Below are positions 9,397 to 21,121 of a stretch of 64,000 nt of DNA, one piece after another. The stretch comes from Beijerinckiaceae bacterium (GTDB lineage: Bacteria; Pseudomonadota; Alphaproteobacteria; Rhizobiales; Beijerinckiaceae): NCBI GenBank assembly GCA_947478405.1, contig CANJVX010000010.1:1-64000 (forward strand), in the 5' to 3' direction. Under the pieces are notes generated by a model. It saw only the letters and a program-made list of their open reading frames with translations, was not told where the DNA came from and ran no database searches. The position numbers were made by a program, and so were the translations under genes. How positions within the stretch are numbered: the stretch's first letter is position 1; each line of letters begins with the position of its first letter.

Positions 9397-11406
9397 TTAA
9401 TTGTCCAAGAAGCTACGGAGTTTGCGCGAGCGGCTCGGGTGCTTCAACTTACGAAGTGCCTTGGCCTCGATCTGGCGAATACGTTCGCGCGTGACCGAGA
9501 ATTGCTGTCCTACTTCTTCCAGCGTGTGATCGGTGTTCATGCCGATACCGAAGCGCATACGCAGCACACGCTCTTCACGCGGAGTGAGCGAGGCCAGCAC
9601 GCGGGTCGTTGTCTCACGCAGGTTCGAATGGATCGCCGCATCAATCGGCAAAATCGCATTCTTGTCTTCGATGAAATCGCCAAGGTGTGAATCTTCTTCG
9701 TCACCAATCGGGGTTTCAAGCGAGATCGGCTCTTTGGCGATCTTCAATACCTTGCGCACTTTTTCGAGCGGCATGGCGAGCTTTTCGGCCAATTCTTCTG
9801 GTGTCGGCTCGCGCCCAATCTCGTGCAACATCTGGCGCGACGTGCGCACGATCTTGTTGATCGTCTCGATCATATGCACGGGGATACGGATGGTGCGCGC
9901 CTGATCTGCAATCGAGCGCGTGATCGCTTGGCGGATCCACCAAGTCGCATAGGTCGAGAATTTATAGCCGCGGCGATATTCGAACTTATCGACCGCTTTC
10001 ATCAGGCCGATATTGCCTTCCTGAATAAGATCGAGGAATTGCAGGCCGCGGTTGGTATATTTTTTCGCAATCGAGATGACGAGACGCAGATTGGCCTCAA
10101 CCATTTCCTTCTTGGCCTGACGGGCTTCGCGCTCGCCCTTCTGCACCATCTGGACGATCTTGCGGAATTCTTGAATCTCAAGACCTGTCTCGGTGGCCAG
10201 CGAATGAATGTCGCCGCGCAGAACCTTGATCGGATCTTTCTCTTTCGCGATGAAATCTTTCCAACCGCGCGTGCCAAGCTTGCCAACGCGCAGCAGCCAT
10301 TTGGGATCAAGCTCCGAACCCTGATAGTTTTTCAGGAAATCTTCGCGGCCCACGCCATGCGATTCACCCAAGCGCATCAGCTTGGTTTCCATACCGATGA
10401 GGCGCTTGTTGATGTCATAAAGCTGCTCGACCAGCGCATCGATGCGGTTCTGGTTGAGCGAAAGAGACTTCACATCCGTGACGATCTCTTTCTTCAGCGT
10501 CTTATATTTGCGCTCTTGGGCTGGCGTCAGCGTTTCATTCTTGAGCTTGTTCTCGACATTCTGATCCTGCAAGCGGCGTAGCTTCTTGTAAGCATCCGCA
10601 ATGCGGTCAAAAGTCTCCAAAACCTTCGGCTTCAGCTCGGCTTCCATCGCCGAAAGCGACACGGAGTTTTCCATGTCGTCTTCATCGTCGAAATTCTCTT
10701 CTGAGTTCGGCGCTTCAGGTTCGGGCGCGGGCATTGGCCCACGCTGCACAGACGCCATCATTTCGGGCGAGGTCATATCCACCTTCGGCGTGTTCTTGCC
10801 ATCGGGGCCAGCATAAGTGGCCTCAAGATCGATAATGTCGCGCAGCAAAACTTTGCCGTCGTTCAATTCATCGCGCCAAATGATAATGGCCTGGAAGGTG
10901 AGCGGGCTTTCGCAAAGCCCAGCAATCATCGCTTCGCGGCCGGCCTCGATGCGCTTGGCAATGGCTATTTCGCCTTCGCGCGAGAGCAGCTCAACCGAGC
11001 CCATTTCGCGCAAATACATGCGCACCGGATCGTCGGTACGATCCGTCGGTTCCGCACGTGTAGCTACAACCGGTGCGGGGCGAGCGACATCGACGAGGTC
11101 TGTCGATTCCGATTCCTCGGCCGCGTCCTCCGGCGTCTCTTCCGCATCGCCGTCTTCATTATCTTCGGCTTCGGAAACGGTAATGCCCATTTCATTGAGC
11201 ATTGAGTAAACATCTTCGATCTGGTCGGAGGAAACTTCTTCCGAGGGCAGGACGGCGTTCAGTTCATCATGGGTGACGTAGCCGCGCTTTTTGGCGAGCT
11301 TGATCATCCGCTTTACGGCGGCATCCGAAAGGTCGAGCAGCGGGCTGTCGGACGTCTCGGGGGCGGCCGTTTCGCCTTCGCGCTTCTCTTCGTCCTTCTT
11401 CGCCAT
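9397..11406 (-). CDS. rpoD: RNA polymerase sigma factor RpoD (primary sigma-70)
   Basis: The housekeeping sigma factor, 669 aa, directs RNA polymerase to -35/-10 promoters. Region 1.1 covers about residues 25-85 and an acidic linker follows. Region 1.2 ([12 protein letters not shown]) lies near residue 128, and a long non-conserved region spans about 160-380. Region 2 ([17 protein letters not shown] and the [12 protein letters not shown] recognition helix) lies near 430-490. Region 4 ends the protein with the helix-turn-helix [19 protein letters not shown]. The ATG at 11406 is preferred because GGAG stands six bases before it; an ATG four codons upstream has the ribosome binding site too close. 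It follows dnaG on the same strand, the classic macromolecular-synthesis order. Confidence 0.98.
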
Positions 11407-11459
11407 ACCCAACTCCATCCTGCCTTGCCGGCGCGAATCACTTTGCCGACAATAGGCCC

Positions 11460-18178: not shown

Positions 18179-19002
18179 GCACCAACCTCCTTGTGACGCA
18201 AGGCATGAGCAATGAAGGCCAGACCGGCTAGCACAAGCGGCAGCGAGAGCAGCATGCCCATTGTGGCGCCACCAAACAGAAAGCCCAATTGCGGATCAGG
18301 CTCACGGAAAAATTCGCAACCAATGCGCGCTACGCCATAGCCTAAGCCAAAAATGCCGGTGGCCAGACCCGGACGCTTCAAAGCGCCCATACGCAAAGCC
18401 ATTTGCAACAAAATAAACAACAGCACGCCTTCACTGGCGGCTTCATACAATTGGCTTGGATGACGCGGGAAAGACCCAGCCAAGGGCTCAGGAAACACCA
18501 TTGCCCAATCGACATCACTCACACGACCCCACAATTCCGGCTTGATGAAATTGGCGAGGCGACCAAAGAAAATCCCCAGCGGAACAACAGCGGCACAAAG
18601 ATCAGCGACCGACAGCATCGGCACTTTCTCACGCCGCGCAAACAACCAAATGCCTAAGGTCGCACCGGCAAGCCCGCCGTGAAACGACATGCCACCTTCC
18701 CACACCGCCGGGATCGACGCGGGATGGGCGAGGAAATATGTCGGATTGTAAAACAGCACATAGCCAAGCCGACCGCCCAACACGACACCAAGCGCGGCAT
18801 AGACGAGCAGATCATCGAGGCTTTCAATCGCCGGGCGGATGCGCGCGCCCCAAAATGAGTCTTGCGCGGCAATGCGGCGCGCCAGCCACCAGCCCAGGAC
18901 GAGCCCCGCAATATAGGCCAAAGCATACCAGCGGATCGGCAGCGGTCCGATTTCGATCAGAACCGGGTCAATGACCGGAAAGGGCAAGATAAAAATCGGC
19001 AT
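18175..19002 (-). CDS. lgt: Prolipoprotein diacylglyceryl transferase Lgt
   Basis: An inner-membrane enzyme of 275 aa that transfers diacylglycerol from phosphatidylglycerol to the lipobox cysteine of prelipoproteins. About seven membrane segments are visible. Key family motifs are the GGMSFHGG loop with the essential histidine near residue 105, and the signature GIFFGRLANFIKPELWGR near 138-155 with the catalytic arginine and asparagine. The start at 19002 (MPIFILPFPV) fits the family N-terminus and has GGAGG about 12 bases upstream; a longer in-frame start adds 20 polar residues. It is divergent from ubiK and heads the lgt-midA-pgeF operon. Confidence 0.96.
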   Translation of the reverse strand: MPIFILPFPVIDPVLIEIGPLPIRWYALAYIAGLVLGWWLARRIAAQDSFWGARIRPAIESLDDLLVYAALGVVLGGRLGYVLFYNPTYFLAHPASIPAVWEGGMSFHGGLAGATLGIWLFARREKVPMLSVADLCAAVVPLGIFFGRLANFIKPELWGRVSDVDWAMVFPEPLAGSFPRHPSQLYEAASEGVLLFILLQMALRMGALKRPGLATGIFGLGYGVARIGCEFFREPDPQLGFLFGGATMGMLLSLPLVLAGLAFIAHALRHKEVGA

Positions 19003-19152
19003 GCGAAAGGCGAGCCTCCAAAAGGTCTCCCCGTGATGCGATGCAAGCCCCGTATCCGTCAAGGCTCAGCGTGGCGGCAACTCTTGCCTCTTGCCTCTTG
19101 CGCTTGCGCCCGCGAGGCGCGAAAAGAGGGCGTTCCGAAAAGAGAGACCGCT

Positions 19153-19407
19153 ATGCCACAGACCAGCAACCCGATCCTCGACGATCTCGCCCGCCTGATG
19201 ACGGATGCCGCCGGCATGGCACAAGGTGTGCGCCGCGAAGCCGAAACCCTTGCCAAGACTCAGATTGAGCGCTTGCTCTCGACGATGGACGTCGTCACGC
19301 GCGAGGAATTCGAAGCCGTGCGTGAAATGGCAATCCTGGCCCGTGAAGAGAACGACAAGCTTGCAGCCCGCATTGCCTATCTCGAAGCCAAGCTCGCAGC
19401 CAAATAA
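19153..19407 (+). CDS. ubiK: UbiK-type accessory factor (BMFP domain protein)
   Basis: An 84-aa protein of the BMFP/YqiC family, needed for aerobic ubiquinone biosynthesis in enterobacteria as a scaffold for Ubi enzymes. The N-terminal half is an amphipathic helix (ILDDLARLMTDAAG). The C-terminal half is a coiled coil with the family signature VTREEFEAVREMAILAREEN, followed by LAARIAYLEAKLA, which should trimerise. It stands divergent from lgt, directly upstream of the GANTC-rich spacer. Confidence 0.88.
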   Translation: MPQTSNPILDDLARLMTDAAGMAQGVRREAETLAKTQIERLLSTMDVVTREEFEAVREMAILAREENDKLAARIAYLEAKLAAK

Positions 19408-19787
19408 GCCAAATCGGAAAAGGTTAACGACCTAAAATTGCTGCTGAGAGTCACGCGTGACTCGTTGCAAGGGTCGTCAACAAAGATTCCACAGCGCATT
19501 TTAGCTTCGCGCTGGCTCACGTCCCAGAGTCAGAACGTCTGTGGACACAACAACTTGCGTCATAGACGCCACCTTCCGAATCCACGAGTTTGCACATCCA
19601 AGGGTACGCCGACTCTAGGCGATCGGACTCAGTTGCGTATATTCCTGAAGCGGACTGATTCGCTGGTTCTTTCAGTATGTAAGCCACCAGCTTTCAAAAG
19701 AGTCTCCGCTTACGGGTTGCGCCCTGCGTCGTCGTCACGAGTTAACAGAACCGCGTTCAGCCCATTCAGGTCCCAAGGCTTCCGCCT
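19408..19787. promoter_or_regulatory. 380-bp gene-free region with nine GANTC (CcrM) sites
   Basis: Nine GANTC sites start at 19448, 19459, 19485, 19527, 19578, 19611, 19626, 19657 and 19700. The first two form the ends of a perfect 16-bp palindrome, GAGTCACGCGTGACTC, at 19448-19463. At about 60 percent GC one site is expected per about 280 bp, so nine in 257 bp is a strong excess. GTTAAC occurs near both ends (about 19423 and 19740) and there are two weak DnaA-box-like 9-mers (GATTCCACA at 19485, GTTTGCACA near 19588). GANTC is the CcrM methylation site in alphaproteobacteria and marks cell-cycle promoters and origins. No coding frame or known RNA is visible. It could be a methylation-controlled promoter for the following ybjN-proC genes or a protein-binding chromosomal site. 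Confidence 0.65.
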
Positions 19788-20288
19788 ATGTCATTCACGC
19801 ATGCTGAACTCGAACGCACCGAGCATCCGGTCGATGTGGTCGAGAGAATTGCCTCCGTCAACGATTGGCGCTTTGATCGCGACGACGACGATGAAATCTC
19901 CATTACGGTCGGCGGTGGCTGGACCGATTATCAAGTGGCATTTACCTGGTTGCCGAATGTGGAATCGCTCCATGTCGCCTGCGCCTTCGATGTGAAGATC
20001 GCCGAACGCCGCCGCTCTGAAGTCCATTCTCTCGTCTCGCTCATCAATGAGCAGCTCTGGGTGGGCCATTTCGGCCTATGGGAATCCGAGAATGTTGTGA
20101 TCTTCCGTCACGCGATCATTCTGTCGGGTGGCGCGGAGCCCACGCCCCAGCAATGCGAAGCAGTGCTAAAGGCCGCAATCACCGCTTGCGAGCGTTACTA
20201 TCAGTCTTTCCAATTCGTCATGTGGGCGGGCAAGACCGCACGCGAAGCGTTGGAGGCAGCCATGTTCGAGACGGTCGGCGAAGCCTGA
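19788..20288 (+). CDS. YbjN domain-containing protein
   Basis: A 166-aa protein of the YbjN family, whose fold resembles type III secretion chaperones; the family's role in alphaproteobacteria is not known. Visible features are the acidic stretch RDDDDEISITVGG near residue 35, the strand YQVAFTWLPN, and the alternating strand/helix segments RRSEVHSLVSLINEQLWVG and GLWESENVVIFRH to residue 110. A helical C-terminus follows. The last base of its stop is the first base of the proC start (TGATG), so the two are translationally coupled. The GANTC cluster directly upstream makes cell-cycle-linked expression possible. Confidence 0.82.
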   Translation: MSFTHAELERTEHPVDVVERIASVNDWRFDRDDDDEISITVGGGWTDYQVAFTWLPNVESLHVACAFDVKIAERRRSEVHSLVSLINEQLWVGHFGLWESENVVIFRHAIILSGGAEPTPQQCEAVLKAAITACERYYQSFQFVMWAGKTAREALEAAMFETVGEA

Positions 20289-21121
20289 TGTCGTCGACTG
20301 CAGATAACTTTCCCGCGTCGATCACTCTGGTGGGCGCGGGCAAGATGGGCTCAGCCATGCTGTCGGGCTGGATCGCCATGGGGCTGAACGCCCAAACCAT
20401 CACGATTTTAGAACCAGCACCTCATCCCGATCTGGAAGCGACCTGCAAGACGGAGGGCGTTGCGCTCAATCCGCCGCTGAGCGCGCTCACGCCCGCTGAA
20501 GTCCTGATCCTGGCGATCAAGCCGCAAATGCTGGAGAGCGTTGCACCCGCTCTGAGCCCCCTCGTAGGTCCCGGCACACTCATTCTCTCCATACTGGCAG
20601 GCAAACGCATTGCCGATCTTGCCGCGCGCCTGCCCGGCACAAGCGCCATTGTGCGCGCCATGCCCAATACGCCTGCCGCCATTGGGCGCGGTATTACGGG
20701 CGTAGCCGCCAGTAGTAGCGTCACAGAGCGCCAGCGCGGCATGACCGACGCCCTGCTGGGCGCTGTGGGCGCTGTCGAATGGCTGGCCAGCGAAACACTC
20801 ATTGATGCGGTGACTGCGGTCTCTGGCTCCGGCCCCGCTTATATTTTCTATCTCGCAGAAGCCTTGGCCAAGGCGGGAGAAGCAGCGGGCCTACCCGCCG
20901 ATCTTGCCGCCCGTCTGGCGCGCGCCACCGTTGAGGGCTCGGGCGAACTAATGCATCTCTCGCCAGAGCTGACACCTGCCAAATTACGCGAGAATGTCAC
21001 ATCGCCCGGCGGCACAACCGCCGCTGCCCTTGCTGTTTTGATGGCAGATGGCGGGCTTTCCCCTCTCATGCGCGACGCCGTGGCTGCGGCGCAGCGCCGC
21101 GCTGGCGAGCTGTCGGGCTGA
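20288..21121 (+). CDS. proC: Pyrroline-5-carboxylate reductase ProC
   Basis: The last step of proline synthesis: reduces pyrroline-5-carboxylate with NAD(P)H. It has 277 aa, the usual length. The N-terminal Rossmann motif is ITLVGAGKMGSAMLSGW, and the central RAMPNTPAAIGRGITG near residue 120 is typical of the family. The C-terminal dimerisation domain contains the signature SGSGPAYIFYLAEAL near 175 and ENVTSPGGTT near 235. The start is fixed by the 1-base overlap with the ybjN-like gene. A longer in-frame reading that begins inside the upstream gene is rejected. Confidence 0.97.
   Translation: MSSTADNFPASITLVGAGKMGSAMLSGWIAMGLNAQTITILEPAPHPDLEATCKTEGVALNPPLSALTPAEVLILAIKPQMLESVAPALSPLVGPGTLILSILAGKRIADLAARLPGTSAIVRAMPNTPAAIGRGITGVAASSSVTERQRGMTDALLGAVGAVEWLASETLIDAVTAVSGSGPAYIFYLAEALAKAGEAAGLPADLAARLARATVEGSGELMHLSPELTPAKLRENVTSPGGTTAAALAVLMADGGLSPLMRDAVAAAQRRAGELSG

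Follow-up and report, generated by a model that had tools for sequence, protein, structure and literature searches.

A 380-bp spacer between ubiK and ybjN in the genome of a Beijerinckiaceae bacterium carries nine GANTC sites within 257 bp, which raises the question of what such a cluster does there. We analysed it within a 64,000-nucleotide stretch of this genome, referred to here as the window. All nine sites are present where the preliminary description had reported them, at positions 19448, 19459, 19485, 19527, 19578, 19611, 19626, 19657 and 19700, inside the spacer at 19408–19787 (plus strand). Judging from sequence comparison, we consider it probable that this spacer supplies both the promoter and the 5′ leader for ybjN–proC, the former being a cell-cycle promoter of the CcrM/GcrA type that is possibly tuned by DnaA.

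Genomic context and density of the GANTC cluster

The neighbours named in the preliminary description agree with the Pfam assignments (BMFP/UbiK, YbjN and P5CR/ProC). Upstream of the spacer lies ubiK (19153–19407, plus strand; Pfam BMFP, 93 bits), with a minus-strand Lgt gene, as assigned by Pfam, on its other side. Downstream lie ybjN (19788–20288, plus strand; Pfam YbjN, 110.6 bits), the gene that the predicted promoter would drive, and proC (20288–21121, plus strand; Pfam P5CR_dimer). Because proC overlaps the ybjN stop codon by one base, the two genes probably form one operon. The spacer itself looks non-coding, as had been proposed, with no Pfam match and a reading frame that is broken in relatives. 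An open reading frame that runs through it (19438–19995) was considered as a hidden gene and rejected, since it lacks a Pfam match and stop codons break it in each of six relatives; L011, one of the six, has its own uninterrupted frame in a different phase.

The window contains 117 GANTC in total compared with a dinucleotide-shuffle mean of 293, and the background density is therefore lower than the preliminary description had assumed. Across a sample of 61 segments from the same genome, window included (1,258,681 of 3,033,194 bases, 41.5%), the rate is 1.62 per kb. The ranking of 257-bp windows that had been suggested as a check places the spacer first over this 41.5% of the genome, as the sole window with nine sites; two places with five GANTC and ten with four follow. 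A first, smaller sample (458,681 bases) had given nine here versus four for the next best. The two five-site places in the sampled part of the genome are L218:19039 and L201:17338.

Such a density might arise at an ordinary promoter if selection removed GANTC from genes but tolerated it in AT-richer spacer DNA, where sites then piled up by chance. GANTC is depleted overall in genomes of this kind, with a higher frequency in intergenic DNA (PMC3973325), and the spacer is indeed AT-richer, with a GC content of 0.53. Its own composition, however, predicts a mean of just 1.5 GANTC, and 200 shuffles never gave as many as nine. Together with the comparisons that follow, this makes a chance pile-up an unlikely explanation.

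GANTC enrichment recurs upstream of ybjN

YbjN is encoded in 39 of 41 genomes of the genus, which includes, at least partly, metagenome-assembled genomes. Thirty loci were fetched and 29 entered the spacer counts, one (L010) being left out as it ends 28 bp upstream of ybjN; counts were taken over the spacer or, at loci without a neighbouring ubiK, over 300 bp. These 29 regions hold 145 GANTC, compared with about 39 after shuffling, with up to 13 in one spacer, and 20 of them are enriched singly (p of 0.05 or less). The excess recurs even though the spacers of the relatives aligned below are only 50–74% identical to that of the window, which argues against a chance pile-up. So do the control pentamers: CTNAG, GTNAC, CANTG and TCNGA show no enrichment in the genus spacers. 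Across the order, GTNAC (28 versus a shuffle mean of 20.7) and CANTG (31 versus 27.6) are higher yet stay inside the shuffle range. Control genes give the same answer, with no GANTC excess at rpoD or carA: in the 300 bp upstream of each gene in the same genus, the mean number of GANTC is 4.62 for ybjN (29 of 30 loci), 1.56 for rpoD (27 usable of 30) and 1.07 for carA (30 of 30).

We found ybjN in 115 of 121 genomes of the order and used the 29 best-scoring new loci of these 115. Their GANTC total is 68–70 compared with about 39 shuffled; only 5 of the 29 loci are enriched singly at p 0.05, which counts against the promoter reading. Adding the best 80 of 589 ybjN loci from named records and dropping regions identical over 200 bp left 133 distinct upstream regions (29 genus, 29 order and 75 named, window included). 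All 133 contain GANTC in the 300 bp preceding ybjN, from 1 to 9 copies each; these locus counts are not independent, because best-scoring loci were chosen and all share ancestry. A Pseudolabrys metagenome-assembled genome (L197), whose record is named as another genus, also carries nine GANTC in the 300 bp before its ybjN gene; high counts may thus have evolved on several occasions.

Two of the nine sites are deeply conserved

Retention of the individual sites, which the preliminary description had proposed to compare with background, was counted in an alignment of 12 spacers, those of the window and of 11 genus relatives. Only two of these sites are present in all 11 relatives. One is the GANTC at 19578–19582 (CGAATC), 60 bp upstream of the predicted −10 box, and the other belongs to TGATTCG at 19656–19662 on the plus strand. 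Four more are kept only in the three closest relatives: 19485–19489, which overlaps a DnaA-box-like TCCACA core at 19488–19493; 19527–19531; 19611–19615, beside the expected −35 position; and 19626–19630, between the expected −35 and −10. The remaining three turn over and would suit a chance pile-up, the sites at 19448 and 19700–19704 (the latter in the leader) being kept in none of the 11 relatives and that at 19459 in one. Overall, retention of the nine sites is modestly higher than that of random spacer 5-mers (p 0.03 for the three closest relatives, 0.08 for all 11). With two sites deeply kept and the rest variable, the raised number of sites is preserved even as most positions turn over.

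TGATTCG is the only one of the nine sites that matches YGAKTCK, the reported consensus for activation by GcrA; the other eight do not, which counts against the promoter reading.

The sites at 19448 and 19459 make up a perfect 16-bp palindrome, GAGTCACGCGTGACTC (19448–19463), and GTTAAC occurs near both borders, at 19423 and 19741. Both features had been pointed out before and both are real, but the aligned relatives do not share them, and at the right-hand GTTAAC other relatives have a GAGTC site instead. We therefore rejected the palindrome and GTTAAC as functional marks, as they are lineage-specific, and the suggestion of an anchoring site finds no support.

A predicted −10 box and TGATTCG form a recurrent core

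Many ybjN upstream regions share one plan, in which TATANT is followed after 11 or 12 nt by TGATTCG. In the window, a predicted −10 box TATATT (19638–19643, plus strand) places the ybjN transcription start near 19650, and TGATTCG, a conserved GANTC that fits the activating consensus, stands beside it. Taking TATANT as the −10 box would put TGATTCG about 6–13 nt downstream of the start. TATANT-N0-20-GATTCG occurs at 20 of 29 genus loci (shuffle maximum 0 in 300 shuffles) and 14 of 29 order loci (shuffle maximum 1), and the looser TATANT-N0-20-GANTC at 20 of 29 order loci (shuffle maximum 2). A relaxed core, TA[TAC][AT]NT-N8-14-YGATTCG, was found in 59 of the 133 distinct regions, with a spacing of 11 or 12 nt in 54 of the 59. 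TGATTCG by itself is present in 91 of 133 ybjN upstream regions (26/29 genus, 8/29 order, 57/75 named); the 8/29 within 300 bp in the order count against the promoter reading, whereas the shorter GATTCG reaches 23/29 there. Among the control genes of the genus, TGATTCG lies upstream of rpoD at 7 of 27 loci and upstream of carA at 0 of 30, compared with the 26 of 29 for ybjN.

Sites also gather upstream of the −10 box. At the 59 loci with the relaxed core, GANTC starts cluster about 50–60 nt and 11–20 nt before the start of TATANT (raw profile), a further peak 18–19 nt after it being there by construction, and 32 of the 59 have a GANTC within 24 nt upstream of the −10 box. The site at 19626 in the window falls between the expected −35 and −10, a placement that goes with one activation time (PMC4287350).

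The strict core, TATANT-N11/12-TGATTCG, occurs a single time in the 1.26-Mb genome sample, at this spacer. Elsewhere in the sample, three places (four matches) carry the relaxed core, including the region upstream of rpoD; this counts against the promoter reading. Just upstream of rpoD (9397–11418), at window position 11454 on the minus strand, lies a core-like TATTGT-N12-TGATTCG, and a GANTC is present 60–85 bp upstream of rpoD in 20 of 27 genus relatives. Another arrangement of a −10 box and CGATTCG, TATATTTTGACTGCGTAACGATTCG, is present at L209:19703 on contig 5 of the same genome.

Some features weigh against a promoter. The −35 region is poor, 40 of the 59 core loci matching TTGACA at three or fewer of six positions. 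A simple consensus scan found no sigma-70-like promoter in the spacer; the sole site from that scan is inside ybjN on the minus strand. The same scan detected a weak terminator-like hairpin over TGATTCG (19649–19664, plus strand), whose pairs are kept in 8–10 of 10 genus leaders, without compensatory change; it is thus probably, but not certainly, without a part in terminating ubiK transcripts.

Hairpins of this kind invite the reading that a structured RNA, a small regulatory RNA or a ubiK terminator is encoded here, of whose sequence the GANTC sites are simply part. The spacer folds somewhat more stably than shuffles on the two strands (z of −1.87 and −1.77; 5 of 100 shuffles equal), terminator-like hairpins were detected by the scan, and a leader element, CCGCGTTCAGCC, is conserved before ybjN in close genus relatives. 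Against this, no Rfam match was obtained for 18900–20400 at E values up to 1, and in the consensus fold of the leader (plus strand, 10 sequences) 0 of 19 pairs show compensatory change. As Rfam, the single-strand folds and the consensus fold were all unconvincing, we rejected a structured RNA, and we regard this whole reading as the least credible of those considered here.

A DnaA-box-like element upstream of the core

The favoured reading, a ybjN–proC promoter, includes a second conserved element. A DnaA-box-like sequence, TGTGGACACA, lies at 19540–19549, 98 bp upstream of the −10 box, with a TCCACA core on the minus strand; we take TCCACA to be the core of the DnaA box. TCCACA/TGTGGA is present in all 29 genus upstream regions (shuffle maximum 8) and in 20 of 29 order regions (shuffle maximum 7). 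In the control comparison, TCCACA was found upstream of ybjN at 29 of 29 loci, of rpoD at 0 of 27 and of carA at 1 of 30. Among the TCCACA cores listed upstream of the −10 box, 31 of 50 are at a distance of 80–109 nt. Stricter DnaA box patterns are less frequent, matching just 3 of 29 loci in the genus and 12 of 29 in the order.

DnaA-box-like cores together with many GANTC could also signal a replication role, as an origin or in DnaA titration or sequestration of hemimethylated DNA, with any promoter secondary. The repABC loci usually carry GANTC above expectation, and they also have GcrA-dependent promoters (PMC11514494). In the 380-bp spacer, however, exact TCCACA cores number only two, and one of the two most conserved GANTC sites keeps a near-constant distance from the ybjN −10 box. 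GC skew, which the preliminary description had proposed as a test of origin proximity, is negative in 31 of 31 windows across the 64 kb, without a switch of sign. In a near-complete relative of two contigs (G022), ybjN is about 3 kb from a contig end, and no dnaA was recognised by eye near it among open reading frames of at least 200 aa in the first 20 kb of the contig. We therefore rejected a replication origin, and hold a replication role in the broader sense to be very improbable, somewhat more so than a chance pile-up.

CcrM and GcrA are encoded in the genome

A ccrM gene, whose absence would have spoken against the preliminary description, is encoded in the same genome: the candidate (an ORF of L089) aligns with the solved structure CcrMI 6pbd, which we take to be the Caulobacter CcrM enzyme, with 530.9 bits over residues 40–390. 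GcrA is encoded as well (PF07750, E = 1.9e-51; G000 contig 4). PF07750 was matched in 21 of 21 genomes searched; among 14 control genomes it matched Caulobacter but also Sulfolobus, which lowers the weight of such a match. The 300 bp upstream of the ccrM gene itself contain two GANTC and no TGATTCG. Two further proteins of the N6/N4 methyltransferase family, of about 490 aa and alike by eye, are encoded on contigs 40 and 74 of the genome (L090 and L091).

Of the roles put forward in the preliminary description, a methylation-timed promoter is thus well supported by comparison, because CcrM and GcrA are both encoded and a core of −10 box and TGATTCG with fixed spacing is conserved upstream of ybjN; an origin and an anchoring site are not. 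In the mechanism that we propose, RNA polymerase would act on the −10 box with a weak −35. GcrA would bind the core in a manner dependent on CcrM methylation, the extra GANTC sites of this clade being laid on top of that core, and DnaA, through the conserved element often found 80–109 bp upstream of the −10 box, may add its own control. Under such a promoter, transcription of ybjN may be timed to chromosome replication.

Comparison with known promoters

GcrA binds preferentially to promoters with methylated GANTC (PMC3667746). In Caulobacter, TGATTCG or YGAKTCK is presumed to be required for activation by GcrA, and in Brevundimonas no preference for an extended GANTC site is described (PMC7987155). 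According to the same account, GcrA control of replication and division genes is conserved within the Caulobacterales and not beyond that order, and popZ is likely to be GcrA-regulated only in the Rhizobiales. The ybjN spacer resembles the CcrM/GcrA promoters of Caulobacter crescentus (mipZ, podJ and ctrA P1) in having GANTC in the promoter, a YGAKTCK-type core, sites conserved in relatives, and CcrM and GcrA encoded in the genome. It differs in the number of sites, nine in the spacer compared with two juxtaposed sites at Caulobacter mipZ (PMC3667746), in having a conserved TGATTCG downstream of the predicted start in addition to the site between −35 and −10, and in its target, ybjN, for which we found no such report in the literature. 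With the repABC promoters and origins of Rhizobiales replicons it shares several GANTC in one regulatory stretch (PMC11514494); unlike them, it shows no origin signature, and a Pfam scan of 16 proteins from the window gave no repABC family.

The gene downstream belongs to Pfam YbjN, the family of Escherichia coli YbjN, Erwinia AmyR and Deinococcus DR1245. DR1245, a structural relative of YbjN, binds the SSB-like protein DdrB, and its loss slows growth (PMC3575483). Our literature search, which covered text outside figures and supplements, returned no link of YbjN to GANTC or to the alphaproteobacterial cell cycle. The promoter type itself is known; our comparison suggests ybjN as a new candidate CcrM/GcrA target. 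A near-fixed GANTC core in many Hyphomicrobiales would be a conserved GcrA candidate outside the Caulobacterales, and it makes ybjN, for which we found no cell-cycle role in the literature, worth testing. The natural variation from 1 to 9 GANTC in the 300 bp upstream of orthologous ybjN genes offers a handle on what the number of methylation sites does.

A bolder proposal, which we put forward tentatively and consider doubtful as it stands, is that ybjN is an unrecognised conserved cell-cycle output gene of the Hyphomicrobiales. Its promoter would then define a distinct class, in which GcrA acts at a methylated TGATTCG 11–12 nt downstream of the −10 box, DnaA exerts co-control and a variable GANTC array determines when, or how sharply, the promoter responds to replication. 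Were this true, YbjN would be a replication- or division-linked protein.

ybjN upstream regions outside the order

At the level of the class, 142 of 190 genomes proved to have ybjN, and 27 further loci from outside the order were read. No conserved TATANT–TGATTCG core was seen by eye in these 27. The 250 bp preceding ybjN contain five or six GANTC at four of these loci (L099, L104, L105 and L113) and none at eight. Several of these upstream regions (among L092–L118) contain, by eye, elements like CCACAAGATGTGG, CCACAATATATGG or CCACTAGATGT, which presumably resemble NrdR boxes.
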